Positions 6,095-32,944 of a stretch of DNA of 64,000 nucleotides are shown piece by piece (position 1 is the first letter of the stretch; each line of letters opens with the position of its first letter). Both the position numbers and the translations under genes were made by a program. The stretch is taken from contig NZ_ML703268.1 of the NCBI RefSeq assembly GCF_008520305.1, forward strand, positions 259,526 through 323,525, in the 5' to 3' direction. This DNA comes from Mesorhizobium sp. SARCC-RB16n (GTDB lineage: Bacteria > Pseudomonadota > Alphaproteobacteria > Rhizobiales > Rhizobiaceae). The notes beneath the pieces are model-generated. The model saw only the letters and a list, made by a program, of their open reading frames with translations. It made no database searches and had not been told where the DNA came from.

Positions 6095-6667
6095 ATGGCC
6101 ATACACAAGGTCGGTTATCTCATCGGCAGCCTTGCCAAGGGATCCATCAACCGCAAGCTCGCGAAGGCGCTTGTTCAACTTGCCCCTCCCGAACTCGAAA
6201 TGACGGAAATCGTCTTCAAGGATCTGCCGCTCTACAGTTACGACTATGACGCCAATTTCCCACCGGCGGCCCAGGCTTTCAAAAAGGCGATCGCCTCCGT
6301 CCAGGCCGTGCTGTTCGTCACCCCGGAGTATAACCGCTCGATCCCCGGCGGACTGAAGAACGCAATCGACTGGGCCAGTCGCCCCTACGGCAAGAATTCA
6401 TTCGCGCGCAAACCGTCCGCCGTCATCGGAACATCGCCGGGCGCTATCGCGACCGCTATCGCCCAACAAAGCCTGCGCAGCGTTCTGAGTTTCTGCAACT
6501 CACCGCAGATGAATGCCCCCGAAGCCTATATCCAGTTCACGCCGGGGCTGATCACGGACGACGGCGAGGTGACGGTTGAATCCACGGAGGACTTCCTGCG
6601 CAACTATATGGCTGAGTTCCACATGTTCATAGCGCGTGTGCTTCAGGTTCTGCCGCCGGACGCATAA
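6095..6667 (+). CDS. NAD(P)H-dependent FMN reductase / quinone reductase
   Basis: Flavodoxin-fold flavoprotein of 190 residues in the ChrR/YieF/azoreductase-like group, which reduces quinones or other acceptors with NAD(P)H. Typical motifs are GSLAKGSINRKLA (11-23, phosphate loop of FMN), TPEYNRSIPGGLKNAIDW (76-93, flavin ring contact) and TSPGAIATAIAQQ. Ribosome site GGAGAG lies about ten bases before the ATG. It is divergent from the osmF operon with about 220 bases between them and convergent with the MFS gene that follows. Physiological substrate unknown. Confidence 0.88.
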   Translation: MAIHKVGYLIGSLAKGSINRKLAKALVQLAPPELEMTEIVFKDLPLYSYDYDANFPPAAQAFKKAIASVQAVLFVTPEYNRSIPGGLKNAIDWASRPYGKNSFARKPSAVIGTSPGAIATAIAQQSLRSVLSFCNSPQMNAPEAYIQFTPGLITDDGEVTVESTEDFLRNYMAEFHMFIARVLQVLPPDA

Positions 6668-25861: not shown

Positions 25862-25966
25862 GTTGGAGCGGTTCAGCGTTTGATAGAATCTCTGACCCGC
25901 TCCAACTTCTTTTTCCACGCAATTCCGGACGGAAAACCGCTGTGCACTTTTCCTGGAATTGCTCTA
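25862..25966. repeat. Composite palindromic intergenic repeat, copy 1
   Basis: Two hairpins: GTTGGAGCGG/CCGCTCCAAC (25862-25871, 25897-25906), then AATTCC...GGAATT (25921-25960), ending GCTCTA. Related elements are at 57609-57706 and 60088-60203; all share an ACTTTTCC / GGAAAAGTG-type core. The terminal TAGAGC on the minus strand provides the stop codon TAG (25964-25966) of the adjacent GT90 gene. Resembles rhizobial RIME-like elements. Confidence 0.75.
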
Positions 25967-26935
25967 GCTCCCGATGAACCGCCAGAGTTCGGGATCGGGT
26001 TCGATCTGGCCGCTGAGCACGAAATATTTGTAGAGGACTAGCAGGGAGATTACCTGCTCGTCCCGTTCATTGGAAAATTTGCGGCAATAGGCATTGGCTG
26101 CGGCGATGATGCGCTCCGCCGCGGCCGGATGCTGCTCGAAGTAACCTACCTTTTCACGGAGATCGGAGAAGTCCGGGTCGAGCGGCGCATAATGGACACC
26201 GGCCTCTAGCTGGCTCTCGCCGAACCATGTCTCGTAGGTCGGCGGCGGCATCAGACAGAGCGAGTTGGAATTCATGATCCATTTGAGGTTGGTCGCCACG
26301 TCATTGCCCTCCAACGAGACGATGTAGCGATAGCGCAGGTGCTGGCTGATGCTCAGGAAGGGCTTGCTGTACTCAACCGGCGCATTGCGCTTGTGCGAAC
26401 CGACGTCGCAGAACGGCAAGTCGCGCGCGACATCCAGGAACCGTGTCCTGATCGGATTGTTGAGGTCGCCGCGCCAGATCACGACCGGTCGTTTGTCGGC
26501 GAAGGCGAAGGCGTCGACGGGCATGTGGAAGTGGCGAAACTTGTTGAACTTCATGACGACAGCGTTGCCGTTGTCGGCGCGGATCGGCCGGTCCTTGACG
26601 AGCGTCGGCAGCTCGGGCACGCCTTTGACGTCGCCGAACTTCAGGTCGATAAGCAATGACGGATCGAAATAGCGGGCAAATTCCTTCAGGTCGTAATAGT
26701 ACATGCTTGGTTCAAAAGGCATCTTGTCGATGCGCACCGCATCCGGGCCCGGCGTAAAAGCGGCCTGCAACTTGTTGTAGTGATTCAGCCGCCGGCGCAC
26801 CGCCTCGTCCGAGAGCCTCGCCTGCTCCAGGCGGCCCGCCAACCGTCGTCGGAAGATAGCTTGGGGTGCGATATCGCGCATGACGTTTCGCGCGTAGTAA
26901 AAGACCCTTGCCGTCGTCCGTTTTATGGTGGCCAT
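25964..26935 (-). CDS. GT90-family glycosyltransferase (LpsA/CAP10-like), copy 1
   Basis: Protein of 323 residues related to CAP10/LpsA-type glycosyltransferases, which in rhizobia act on lipopolysaccharide core or other surface glycans. Conserved stretches: VVIWRGDLNNPIRTRFL, DVGSHKR, KPFLSISQHLRYRYIVSLEGNDVATNLKWIMNS and PPPTYETWF. It is followed (upstream on the strand) by a close paralogue of identical length at 27088-28059. Its stop codon is supplied by the adjoining palindromic repeat. Confidence 0.88.
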   Translation of the reverse strand: MATIKRTTARVFYYARNVMRDIAPQAIFRRRLAGRLEQARLSDEAVRRRLNHYNKLQAAFTPGPDAVRIDKMPFEPSMYYYDLKEFARYFDPSLLIDLKFGDVKGVPELPTLVKDRPIRADNGNAVVMKFNKFRHFHMPVDAFAFADKRPVVIWRGDLNNPIRTRFLDVARDLPFCDVGSHKRNAPVEYSKPFLSISQHLRYRYIVSLEGNDVATNLKWIMNSNSLCLMPPPTYETWFGESQLEAGVHYAPLDPDFSDLREKVGYFEQHPAAAERIIAAANAYCRKFSNERDEQVISLLVLYKYFVLSGQIEPDPELWRFIGS

Positions 26936-27087
26936 CGTTCTTTAGATCAGAGATAAACGCGGTTAAACAAATGATGGCCGGGATGGTTCCGTGGCATGAT
27001 TGCGCATCATTGGGCCATGCATTCCGGCAGTGTTCGAACGCGTGGCTACCCGTCGCGATAAGGCGCACAGGGCGGCGTGGAAAGCAA

Positions 27088-28059
27088 CTAGCCCGTTATG
27101 TAGCGCCATACCTCGGCGTCAGGTTTGATCTGGCCCGAGAGCACGAAATACTTGTAGAGCACCAGCAGGGAGATCGCCTGCTCGGTCCGCTCGTCGTCGA
27201 ATGTCCGGCAATAGGCGTTCGCGGTGGCGATGATGCGCTCTGCCTTCGCCGGATTCCGCTCGAAATAGGCCACATGGTCCGCAAGATTCGAGAAATCCGT
27301 CTCGAGCGGCACATAATGCACATTGGCTTCGAGCTGCCGCTCCGCAAACCATGTCTCATAAGTCGGTGGCGGCATCATGCAGAGCGACTTCGAATTCATG
27401 ATCCATTTGAGATTCGTCGCCACGTCATTGCCTTCGAGCGAGACGATGTAGCGGTAGCGCTGGTGCTGGCTGATACTGAGAAAAGGCTTGGCGTATTCCG
27501 CCGGCGCGTTCGGCTTGTGCGAGCCGGCATCGCAGAACGGCAGGTCGCGCACGGCCTTGAGGAATCTTGTCCTGATCGGATTGTTAAGATCGCCGCGCCA
27601 GACGACGATCGGCAGCTTGTCGGCGAACGAGATGGCGTCAGCCGGCATCTGGAAGTGACGAAACTTGTCGAGCTTCATGATGATCGCGTTCTCGTCATCG
27701 TCAAGGATCGGCCGATCCTTGACAATCGCCGGCACCTTCGGCACCCGCCTGACGTCGCCGAATTCGAGGTCGATGAGCAAATCCGGATCGAAGTAGCGGG
27801 CGAATTCCTTCAGGTCGTAATAATACATGGTCGGAGTGAAGGGCAGCTTGCTGATGCGCTTGGCATTGGCGCTTGGCGCGAAATCTTGCTGCAACTTGTT
27901 GTAGTAATTCAAGCGCTGGCGCGCCGCCTCACCGGAAAGCCTGGCCCTTTCGAGACGGCCGGCCAACCTGGCGCGAAACAGCGCTTGCGGAGCGACATCG
28001 CGCGCGACGTTTCTCGCATAATAGAAAACTCTTGCTGCGGTCCGCGAAATTGTGGCCAT
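27088..28059 (-). CDS. GT90-family glycosyltransferase (LpsA/CAP10-like), copy 2
   Basis: Also 323 residues and aligned end to end without gaps to the neighbouring GT90 gene; roughly three quarters of residues agree by eye. All core motifs are kept (VVWRGDLNNPIRTRFL, SISQHQRYRYIVSLEGNDVATNLKWIMNS, MPPPTYETWF). The two genes are 152 bases apart in the same direction, a tandem duplication that has diverged. Whether they differ in donor or acceptor cannot be read here. Confidence 0.88.
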   Translation of the reverse strand: MATISRTAARVFYYARNVARDVAPQALFRARLAGRLERARLSGEAARQRLNYYNKLQQDFAPSANAKRISKLPFTPTMYYYDLKEFARYFDPDLLIDLEFGDVRRVPKVPAIVKDRPILDDDENAIIMKLDKFRHFQMPADAISFADKLPIVVWRGDLNNPIRTRFLKAVRDLPFCDAGSHKPNAPAEYAKPFLSISQHQRYRYIVSLEGNDVATNLKWIMNSKSLCMMPPPTYETWFAERQLEANVHYVPLETDFSNLADHVAYFERNPAKAERIIATANAYCRTFDDERTEQAISLLVLYKYFVLSGQIKPDAEVWRYITG

Positions 28060-30887: not shown

Positions 30888-31253
30888 ATGAACCTTGCCG
30901 ATCCAAACGGCAGCCGTCTCTTCGTATTTGCCGGCGGTCTCGTCGGCGCGGCGGGCGTGGCGCTGTCGGCAGCGGCCGCGCACCGTGGCGGCGCCTTCAC
31001 CGGCACGGCCGCGTCGTTCCTCCTGATGCATGCGCCGGTCTTTCTTGCCATTGGCCTTGTCGGCGCGAACCGCTGGCTGCGCATCGCAAGCCTCGTTCTG
31101 CTCGCCGGGCTGTTGCTCTTCGCGGGTGATCTTCTCGCCCGCGATTTCTGGGGATCGAGGCTGTTTCCGATGTCGGCGCCGATCGGCGGCACCCTGCTCA
31201 TTGCAGGCTGGCTCGCGATAGCGATCTCGGCCGTGGCGCGTCCACGACCCTGA
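30888..31253 (+). CDS. DUF423 family membrane protein
   Basis: Small membrane protein of 121 residues with about four helices: FVFAGGLVGAAGVALSAAAAHR at the start (the GA..A.AAH pattern is typical of DUF423) and APIGGTLLIAGWLAIA at the end. Begins 38 bases after the MFS stop, GAAGGAG upstream, so it may be in the same transcript. Function unknown. Confidence 0.8.
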   Translation: MNLADPNGSRLFVFAGGLVGAAGVALSAAAAHRGGAFTGTAASFLLMHAPVFLAIGLVGANRWLRIASLVLLAGLLLFAGDLLARDFWGSRLFPMSAPIGGTLLIAGWLAIAISAVARPRP

Positions 31254-31268
31254 AGTGATTGCTCCGGG

Positions 31269-31418
31269 TCAATCCCGGCGGCGTTCCCGGCGGATCCAAA
31301 GGTCGCGATTGCGCGCGGCGGGTTTTGCCCGCCGCCGCGCCTCCGGCCGTTCGGTGGCCGGCGCGATACCCCAGTAGTTGCGATAGATGTCTTCGAACAG
31401 ATGTTTGATGGGATGCAT
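31269..31418 (-). CDS. Small basic protein A, paralogue pair
   Basis: 49 residues: MHPIKHLFEDIYRNYWGIAP, then an Arg-rich part ending DLWIRRERRRD. The ATG has GGAGG seven bases upstream. A second gene at 31562-31702 encodes a protein of the same design (MHP..L..DIYRN.W.I, then Arg-rich with W-I-R). Upstream is a LacI-type operator-like site at 31437-31450. A perfect 85-bp tandem duplication covers its promoter and first 15 codons. No known function; pI is very high, so nucleic acid, membrane or protein binding are possible. Confidence 0.65.
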   Translation of the reverse strand: MHPIKHLFEDIYRNYWGIAPATERPEARRRAKPAARNRDLWIRRERRRD

Positions 31419-31436
31419 GACTCATCCTCCTTGCAC

Positions 31437-31450
31437 TTGAATCGATCCAA
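31437..31450. promoter_or_regulatory. LacI-type site O1
   Basis: TTGAATCGATCCAA, near-palindrome centred on CG as usual for LacI-family operators; 19 bases upstream of small gene A. One of four identical copies within 375 bases of each other, next to a LacI gene. Confidence 0.75.
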
Positions 31451-31457
31451 TCATTGG

Positions 31458-31503
31458 AGTAGTTGCGATAGATGTCTTCGAACAGATGTTTGATGGGATG
31501 CAT
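31458..31503 (-). pseudogene. Duplicated 5' fragment of small gene A
   Basis: Second copy of the start of small gene A: ATG at 31503 and the first 14-15 codons, then the reading leaves the gene and passes through the inner promoter copy. The resulting open reading continues to 31198 as an unrelated Ser/Arg-rich sequence. It still has a good ribosome site, so an aberrant peptide could be made. Confidence 0.7.
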
Positions 31504-31521
31504 GACTCATCCTCCTTGCAC

Positions 31522-31535
31522 TTGAATCGATCCAA
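31522..31535. promoter_or_regulatory. LacI-type site O2 (duplicated O1)
   Basis: Same 14 bases as O1, exactly 85 bases away because of the tandem duplication. Confidence 0.72.
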
Positions 31536-31561
31536 TCATTGGACGCAAAAAAGCCGGTTGA

Positions 31562-31702
31562 TCAGCTCCGCTTGCGCACCACCAGGAAGCGAAGGTCGCG
31601 AATCCATGGGCCTGTTTCACCACGACGCCTGGCTTTGGCGGCCGAGCCGATATTCCAGTCGTTGCGATAGATGTCGTCGTAGAGATAGTTGACGGGATGC
31701 AT
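31562..31702 (-). CDS. Small basic protein B, paralogue pair
   Basis: 46 residues: MHPVNYLYDDIYRNDWNIGS, then AAKARRRGETGPWIRDLRF and a basic end. Shares MHP, L-[FY]-[ED]-D-IYRN, W-x-I, an Arg-rich centre and W-I-R with protein A at 31269-31418. GGGAGGAG precedes the ATG. Site O3 lies 44 bases upstream. An oligo-T run follows the stop on the minus strand after a weak hairpin. Too short for standard gene finding, but the paralogy supports it. Confidence 0.65.
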   Translation of the reverse strand: MHPVNYLYDDIYRNDWNIGSAAKARRRGETGPWIRDLRFLVVRKRS

Positions 31703-31745
31703 GGCGCTCCTCCCTCTGGCTAATCAAGCAGAACATGCCTGCAAC

Positions 31746-31759
31746 TTGGATCGATTCAA
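31746..31759. promoter_or_regulatory. LacI-type site O3
   Basis: TTGGATCGATTCAA, the exact reverse complement of O1. Upstream of small gene B; 49 bases centre to centre from O4, so a looped or cooperative arrangement is possible. Confidence 0.75.
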
Positions 31760-31794
31760 ACATAGAACCCCGGCTGTCGCAGGTCAAGCAAAAT

Positions 31795-31808
31795 TTGAAT
31801 CGATCCAA
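31795..31808. promoter_or_regulatory. LacI-type site O4
   Basis: TTGAATCGATCCAA, identical to O1. Lies 60 bases upstream of the LacI gene start and probably mediates autoregulation. Confidence 0.75.
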
Positions 31809-31867
31809 ACAAAATGCTAGATGCTGCTCGGGAACGTGCTAAATGCATGTCAGGAGGCATTGCGCAA

Positions 31868-32944
31868 ATGGCGTCACTCACCTCAGGCAATCGACGACCC
31901 GTCCGACTGGCGGATATCGCAAAGGCCGCCGGTGTTTCGCACGGCACCGCGTCCAATGTGTTCAGCCGCCCCGAGATCGTGCGCGAGGAAGTCCGCGAAC
32001 GGGTTCGCGCTGCCGCCGAGGCGATGGGGTATGGCGGGCCCGACCCAAAGGGCCGGCTGCTGCGGGCCGGCAAGGTCAACGCCATTGGCGTCGCCACCGC
32101 CGAGCCCCTCTCCTACTTCTTCGACGATCCGTTTGCGCGCGTCATGATGGCCGGCATCTCACAGGCCTGCGATGCGACGGGAGCCGGCATCTCCCTGGTT
32201 TCGGCCGCCAACAACGAGCAGCTTGCGTGGAACATCCAGAGCGCCCTGGTCGACGGGTTCATCGTGTTCTGCATCGAAGGCGGCTCACGCCTGGTGGAGT
32301 TGGCACGCGAGCGTAAGCTGCCCTTCGTCGCGCTCGACCTCGATTCCGAGGACGGGTCGGTCGCCGCGATCGGTGTCGACAACATCGCCGGCGCCGGCAT
32401 GGCGGCCCGCCATCTCACCGATCTCGGACATCGCCGCTTTGCCGTCCTGGCGCTGCCCTTTGCCGACGACAGGACGGGCCTTGTTTCGGCTGAACAGGTC
32501 CGGGCCGCAACCTATGCAGGGACGCGCGACCGCCTCACCGGCTATCTCCGGGAGCTTTCGCGGGTTGGCGTCGACACATCCAAAGTGCCCGTCTATGAGA
32601 CCGCCAACGACGTGGCGAGCACGAAGGCGGGGCTCGAAACCATCTTCGCCTCCGACGCGCCGCCCACGGCGATCCTGGCCATGTCGGACAGAATAGCCCT
32701 GGTGGCGCTCGAATGGCTGAGCGCACGCGGGCTGAACGTGCCTGACGATGTTTCCATCGTCGGGTTCGACGGTGTTCCGGAAGCAGCGGTGTCCGAGCCG
32801 CCATTGACCACGATCGCCCAGCCGATTGCCGAGATGGGCCGCCTTGCCGTCAGGGCGATCCTGGAGAGCGACGGGCCGGTCAGCCGGCACCAACTGCCGG
32901 TCGAACTAATCGTGCGGAGCTCGTCGGGTCCGCCCCGCGGCTGA
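31868..32944 (+). CDS. LacI-family transcriptional regulator
   Basis: Repressor-type protein of 358 residues. The HTH is near the N-terminus (VRLADIAKAAGVSHGTASNVFSRPEIV) with the usual hinge region after it, then a periplasmic-binding-protein-like sensor domain (KVNAIGVATAEPLSYFFDDPFARVMMAGI onward; DVSIVGFDGVPEA near the end). The ATG at 31868 is ten bases after AGGAGG. Identical operator-like sites lie in front of this gene and of both small-protein genes. No sugar transporter or catabolic gene is next to it, so the ligand is unknown. Confidence 0.92.
   Translation: MASLTSGNRRPVRLADIAKAAGVSHGTASNVFSRPEIVREEVRERVRAAAEAMGYGGPDPKGRLLRAGKVNAIGVATAEPLSYFFDDPFARVMMAGISQACDATGAGISLVSAANNEQLAWNIQSALVDGFIVFCIEGGSRLVELARERKLPFVALDLDSEDGSVAAIGVDNIAGAGMAARHLTDLGHRRFAVLALPFADDRTGLVSAEQVRAATYAGTRDRLTGYLRELSRVGVDTSKVPVYETANDVASTKAGLETIFASDAPPTAILAMSDRIALVALEWLSARGLNVPDDVSIVGFDGVPEAAVSEPPLTTIAQPIAEMGRLAVRAILESDGPVSRHQLPVELIVRSSSGPPRG

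Follow-up and report, generated by a model that had tools for sequence, protein, structure and literature searches.

Control of sugar operons is the role for which LacI-family regulators are best known from textbooks. Small proteins of the DUF1127 type are being actively studied, but to our knowledge little is known about what switches them on. The locus described here, in which a LacI-family gene faces two small-protein genes, resembles SgrT of Escherichia coli by description: in both cases a small protein would be the output of a sugar-related signal, whereas SgrT is encoded on a small RNA that answers to a different regulator.

Ravcheev et al. reconstructed in 2014 what more than 1300 LacI regulators control. 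According to the part of that paper used here, their targets are almost all carbohydrate-related (carbohydrate pathways for 176 of the 182 groups with an assigned pathway), 72% of the regulators are autoregulated and intersite distances peak at 13, 22 and 32 bp (PMC4052901). The local regulons among them share with the present locus the LacI protein, a CG-centred even palindrome, a divergent target, likely autoregulation and several tandem sites; they differ in that theirs concern carbohydrate pathways, whereas the locus here holds a small-protein gene only. PckR, another LacI-family regulator from the same order (Rhizobiales), is predicted there to be global (pckA, edd, zwf and others), whereas exact sites are found at one locus here; this comparison is of regulon breadth, not of motif (PMC4052901).

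For the small proteins, the comparison is with the DUF1127 proteins of Agrobacterium, Rhodobacter (CcaF1) and E. coli (YjiS), for which binding to RNA (in the case of CcaF1), binding to the sensor kinase PhoR and complementation across species are reported (PMC12501420). They are likewise small and Arg-rich, and in four genera a DUF1127-like gene stands in the slot of the unit; unlike them, the two proteins described here give no DUF1127 match. Brucella DUF1127 genes are placed under the LysR regulator VtlR, not under a LacI protein, in the portion of PMC12595884 used, and one DUF1127 protein was detected in Sinorhizobium meliloti (PMC10117765, in part). Open papers on LacI with small proteins or Mesorhizobium, or on LacI with DUF1127, gave no description of such a unit, as far as they were covered by the search, which agrees with the original prediction, made from the sequence without database searches, that the arrangement was not recognized as described. 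We class the unit as a local regulator of the LacI family whose kind of target is new.

Layout of the locus and its operators

The window, i.e. the whole analyzed stretch of 64,000 nucleotides from Mesorhizobium sp. SARCC-RB16n, contains the following features around the small genes:

30888-31253: DUF423 gene, convergent with A
31269..31418, minus strand: small protein A, 49 aa, second gene and paralogue of B
31373..31542: exact 85-bp tandem duplication (31373-31457 and 31458-31542)
31437..31450: exact operator site before A itself, second copy of the A operator and product of the tandem duplication
31522..31535: exact operator site before the duplicated start of A
31562..31702, minus strand: small protein B, 46 aa, leading gene in the presumed operon
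31746..31759: operator 2, exact site, abutting the -10 element and covering the predicted small-gene transcription start, 49 bp from operator 1
31759..31787, minus strand: predicted sigma-70 type promoter for B and A (TTGACC-17-TATGTT), between operators 1 and 2
31795..31808: operator 1, exact site, upstream of the small-gene promoter and containing the predicted -35 element of lacI
31795..31823, plus strand: possible weak lacI promoter, read by eye (TTGAAT within operator 1, 17 bp, TAGATG)
31868..32944, plus strand: LacI-family regulator, 358 aa, divergent from B and A; the longest ORF starts at 31814

For LacI, the start at 31868 is more likely than that at 31814, because a ribosome site is found there and the resulting N-terminus is common to the congeners. 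The protein carries a helix-turn-helix (PF00356, 42.2 bits at a cut-off of 27) and a ligand domain of the Peripla_BP_3 type (PF13377, 114.3 bits), with PDB relatives down to E 1.5e-43, and a CG-centred even palindromic operator lies near its gene; all three features are those of the LacI/GalR family. The promoter of B and A was the sole promoter-like site found by a scan of 31200-31900 (shuffle mean 0.4), which missed the possible lacI promoter. Purine-rich sequences resembling ribosome sites precede both small ORFs. Downstream of A, nothing follows on the same strand before the convergent DUF423 gene, and no operator was noticed before the latter.

Exact copies of TTGAATCGATCCAA occur four times in the window (31437, 31522, 31746 on the minus strand, and 31795; span 31437-31808), whereas about 0.0005 exact 14-mers per 64 kb are expected by chance (arithmetic) and all other matches in the window have 3 mismatches. 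At 3 mismatches the total is 11, and as many were obtained in 3/100 shuffles; hence, the weight rests on the exactness and clustering of the sites. The four sites had been predicted to be identical, and they are, with the qualification that 31437 and 31522 represent a single site copied by the exact 85-bp duplication, which repeats the first codons of A (a truncated start copy) and adds one operator. B and A are separated by 143 bp in the window; in the 22 further loci where the script recovered both ORFs, the gap is 56-74 bp and the duplication is absent. It is therefore either recent or an assembly error. A site matching the position 31522 is listed in most two-gene loci.

The same arrangement was followed in the 37 LacI loci of the family sample described below. 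The operator pair is 46-51 bp apart in 35 of them, the exceptions in spacing being G453 and G299; for G255, the first operator chosen by the script was a false site. A third operator follows 31-35 bp further on in 28/37 loci; the window has no such third leader operator and has the operator before A instead. A loose promoter pattern was found between the first two operators in 34/37 loci, as a raw count.

The operator sequence partly follows the recognition residues of the LacI protein. With VSK, all 9 genomes shown have a AACCGGTT-type core. Among genomes with VSH, GATCGATT predominates, and operator 1 is GATCGGTT in some of them; those with VSQ have TATCGRTT or AATCGRTT, and G247 also has GATCGGTT. 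The sole VSR genome has GATCGGTT, and G299 is an outlier, combining VSH with TTGGACCGGTCCAA at a LacI identity of 56%. Since both residues and operators follow clades, and H and Q overlap, this agreement does not represent many independent events; partial as it is, it supports the LacI protein of the locus as the probable binder.

Distribution and neighbourhood of the unit

Among 61 congeneric genomes, the small protein was found in 56 (E ≤ 4.2e-6), including all 56 congeners of 6.0 Mb or more, and the LacI protein in 57 (E ≤ 1e-90). All 56 genomes with the small protein have the LacI protein. The other five comprise G043, with LacI alone, and four genomes with neither (G007, G014, G025 and G052), in which no small-protein match was found at locus level either. 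The expectation that small protein, 14-mer and LacI gene travel together was thus borne out in the genus. Small-protein matches in G014, G025 and G043 (E 0.007-0.08) and in G169 (within a 228-aa frame of a genome without LacI) were dropped as spurious. In G043 (L111, at about 6848), the LacI gene is kept at 72% identity and a one-mismatch site before an MFS gene is kept as well, while the operators and small genes are gone.

Named relatives of the LacI protein were taken as the best 80 of 197 (77 from Mesorhizobium and one each from Pseudaminobacter soli, Rhizobiales bacterium and Bacterium). Of these best 80, 79 have the operator pair and a small ORF, the exception being Mesorhizobium composti; the count includes L209, the small ORF of which lies outside the script pattern and was read by eye. 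Two small ORFs were recognized by the script pattern in 65 of the best 80.

In a sample of the family, LacI matches of 54-98% identity were obtained in 37/394 genomes. One LacI lineage, present in 16 of the 109 sampled genera, faces only a small-protein gene, which is of the MHP type in 18 genomes, of the YLFKDL type in 7, DUF1127-like in 10 and an orphan ORF in 2. The proposal of a LacI protein paired with one family of small basic proteins is supported for the genus, in which the unit is conserved; it was too narrow in that the unit reaches other genera and the same LacI protein elsewhere faces other small proteins. The LacI match in G071, a genome of another family, has 52% identity, with neither operators nor a small ORF upstream, and is probably not an orthologue. 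A plasmid collection, which may omit near records, gave no LacI match at E 1e-80.

Within the window, the neighbours of the unit are MFS, DUF423 and OpgC genes, so that, as stated originally, no sugar gene is adjacent. When ORFs of ≥ 110 aa were compared in 22 loci, no ORF cluster besides LacI was common to more than 4 locus labels, except one with 5, which we take to be the antisense frame of LacI. Ten window neighbours were checked in 40 loci. The DUF423 gene lies near LacI in 15 of them, namely in 9/9 loci of the genus Mesorhizobium (L072-L080, 13-16 kb), in G043 and in 5 of 10 MHP loci of other genera, and in 0/20 of the loci L112-L131; hence, the small gene is not the sole recurrent neighbour of LacI. 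An AKR gene recurs in one other genus, and the remaining eight recur inside the genus only. Neither comparison, both being short of a full annotation, revealed a sugar-use gene recurring near LacI.

The small proteins and their exchange

The two paralogous ORFs of 49 and 46 residues were confirmed as predicted. Selection was examined in 51 of 81 loci (the 80 named relatives plus the window, which is among the 51), in which both ORFs were recognized by pattern; L132 and L133, which belong to another lineage, were removed by hand. For codons 2-18, pN/pS is 0.110 for B (1.31 and 1.06 in the other frames) and 0.128 for A (1.52 and 1.55 in the other frames), and the C-terminal halves of B and A are looser (0.54 and 0.58). 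The anticipated conservation of the small frames was thus found in their N-terminal part; judged by these substitution patterns, A and B are under protein-level selection, and a reading as chance ORFs was rejected. Of the shared protein pattern proposed, the N-terminal module of about 18 residues is conserved (roughly MHPxxxLFxDIYRNxWGI), whereas the tail is Arg-rich yet variable. In G022 (L076, about 6138-6280), B is degenerate, with a changed second codon and an in-frame stop, while A and the operators are kept; therefore, B can be lost alone.

No Pfam family matched A or B at E up to 1, PF06568 (DUF1127) included, and NCBIfam, PHROGs and PADLOC held no meaningful relative. The unit thereby adds a small-protein family that these four resources do not recognize. 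A profile of 21 A- and B-type sequences gave no PDB chain at E 1, and no Rfam match was obtained at E 0.1. An amphipathic N-terminal helix was considered and rejected as inconsistent, the share of shuffles scoring as high being 0.020 for A, 0.076 for the consensus, 0.169 for B and 0.659 for YLFKDL.

In 19 of the 37 LacI genomes, the slot opposite LacI holds a small protein other than the MHP type: a distant relative in 7, a DUF1127-like protein in 10 and an orphan in 2. The distant relatives are the YLFKDL proteins, whose module is related to that of the MHP proteins (hhalign probability 94.6, E 7e-8, 20 columns covering the first 20 residues); three of the seven YLFKDL proteins tried gave no significant Pfam match. 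For 10/10 of the DUF1127-like proteins, which come from four genera (g91, g130, g142 and g128), PF06568 is the best Pfam match; 3 exceed the gathering score of 23.3 bits, and the rest score 16.5-21.6. The orphan ORFs of 82 and 74 aa (L129 in G299 and L112 in G247, two genera) gave no Pfam match. The exchanged proteins are not all basic: three YLFKDL proteins and one orphan have a net charge of -2 to 0.

In a tree of 36 LacI sequences, a branch with full support sets the DUF1127-type rows apart, and another such branch does so for the YLFKDL-type rows; the MHP rows form two groups, the relation of which to the rest is not firmly resolved; the tree has a midpoint root only. The small protein was thus replaced by one of another kind at least once, in whichever direction. 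The exchange in the slot suggests that A/B and the DUF1127-like proteins may meet a like need.

Proposed switch, reach of the regulator and alternative readings

We consider it probable that the LacI protein is an autoregulated, metabolite-sensing repressor and that it serves mainly to set the amount of a small effector protein, which would target RNA or other proteins in the manner of DUF1127 proteins. With the signal absent, a LacI dimer would occupy operators 1 and 2, which flank the promoter of B and A, as well as the further sites before the small genes; bound in this way, it would block both its own promoter and that of B and A. A small metabolite, by family precedent probably a sugar or sugar derivative, would release LacI, whereupon the small proteins would be made. 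Their site of action would be away from the locus, where they would contact RNA or a protein, for instance a sensor kinase; for A and B, this last step is proposed by analogy with what is reported for DUF1127. Where the LacI protein faces a DUF1127-like gene, a direct handle is at hand: loss of lacI should give the protein and, once the ligand is found, the signal would be known.

A wider reading is offered tentatively and with clear doubt, namely that these loci form a class of switches in which the whole regulon of a LacI repressor is one exchangeable slot for a small effector. The MHP and YLF proteins would then be functional equivalents of DUF1127 proteins, and the ligand would directly set a global response at the level of RNA or kinases (e.g. 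in the metabolism of phosphate or carbon), bypassing any catabolic operon.

Whether the regulon ends at the locus was judged from whole-genome operator searches with patterns taken from each clade's own locus. Exact operators were confined to the LacI/small-gene locus in 39/39 genomes that have any: in 19/23 Mesorhizobium genomes (none in the LacI-less G007, G014 and G052 or in G043), in 9/9 and 8/8 genomes of two other operator classes, and in G255, G264 and G168. As about 0.1 exact site per genome is expected by chance (arithmetic), the absence of exact sites elsewhere is not itself surprising; at the level of the motif, it shows that the genomes searched have retained no further target bearing a full site. 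When one mismatch was allowed, in 7 genomes, sites recurred upstream of two MFS genes and of a different LacI gene, and also within a coding region. The original view of a self-contained regulon is thus upheld for the exact operators and weakened by the one-mismatch site conserved before an MFS gene.

That site is the starting point for a different reading, which we regard as rather unlikely: LacI would be an uptake regulator with its key targets elsewhere, above all this MFS transporter gene, and the small genes would be accessory. The first MFS site, TTGAATCGATCTAA, is placed between the -35 and -10 elements of the MFS gene in all 11 loci inspected and occurs in 8/11 Mesorhizobium genomes read, including G043, which has no small genes. 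Beyond Mesorhizobium, G319 has the same TTGAATCGATCTAA, and G180 and G259 have TTGAATCGATTTAA, also with one mismatch. However, the 3/11 Mesorhizobium genomes without TTGAATCGATCTAA are LacI-less and keep a CGATTTAA-type site in the same place, and the LacI-less G025 (90% complete genome) keeps the Mesorhizobium form. The reader may instead be another LacI protein, the gene of which is preceded by a similar CGATTTAA sequence plus a TTGGGTCGATTCAA or TTGGATTGATTCAA site (L237-L239, L243). Moreover, other sequences stand at the position of the first MFS site in G264, G234, G168, G255 and G247, and no off-locus one-mismatch site was found in G255, G264 and G168. In some members of the genus, a second MFS site, TTGGATCGATTCAT, lies over the start codon of a different MFS gene, which would fit an uptake regulator, but this site is missing in G017, G021, G055, G056, G006 and G043 and in the 8 genomes of other genera read. 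The TTGAATCGATCTAA site may thus be another target of this LacI protein or may belong to a different LacI regulator, as we are inclined to think. Sites of the TTGAATCGATCTAA/CGATTTAA form, within the promoter of the MFS gene, were read in L244, L245, L248-L253 and L274-L292.

Also unlikely, in our estimate, is a direct modulation of one transporter by the small proteins in the manner of SgrT, by which the LacI signal would stop or permit the uptake of the LacI ligand itself. The pairing of a LacI sensor with a small-protein output and the SgrT precedent speak for it. Against it, the loci compared outside the genus show no recurrent transporter next to the unit, and replacement by DUF1127-like proteins suggests a partner of broader kind.

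The confinement of the exact operators to the locus in the genomes searched would also suit a closed feedback circuit, in which the small proteins feed back on the LacI protein of their locus, as anti-repressor or co-repressor, and have no outside target. We think this quite improbable: an unrelated family replaces the small protein while LacI stays related, a replacement hard to reconcile with a partner dedicated to binding LacI, and other partners have been reported for DUF1127 proteins (PMC12501420, in the part used).

We also prefer the autoregulated repressor with a small effector over two readings that start from the small ORFs themselves. Their small size and basic character, the operators tight round the promoter and the gene duplication would suit toxins or antimicrobial peptides silenced by LacI, but no immunity gene or exporter was seen within the unit, PADLOC and PHROGs gave nothing meaningful, the small protein is present in all larger congeners and no plasmid LacI match was obtained at E 1e-80; we rate this as highly improbable. 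That the ORFs are leader sequences or part of a non-coding RNA, with the repeats mattering solely as DNA, as their shortness, variable C-terminal halves and operators near the ribosome sites might suggest, is hardly credible given the in-frame pN/pS of 0.11-0.13 against 1.06-1.55 in the other frames (51 loci), the ribosome sites themselves, the lack of an Rfam match and the lack of any gene after A on its strand before 31253.

Elsewhere in the window, two adjacent paralogous genes of 323 aa each, about 76% identical, lie on the minus strand at 25964-28059. The pair occurs in several congeners and, judging by its appearance, may be glycosyltransferase-like.
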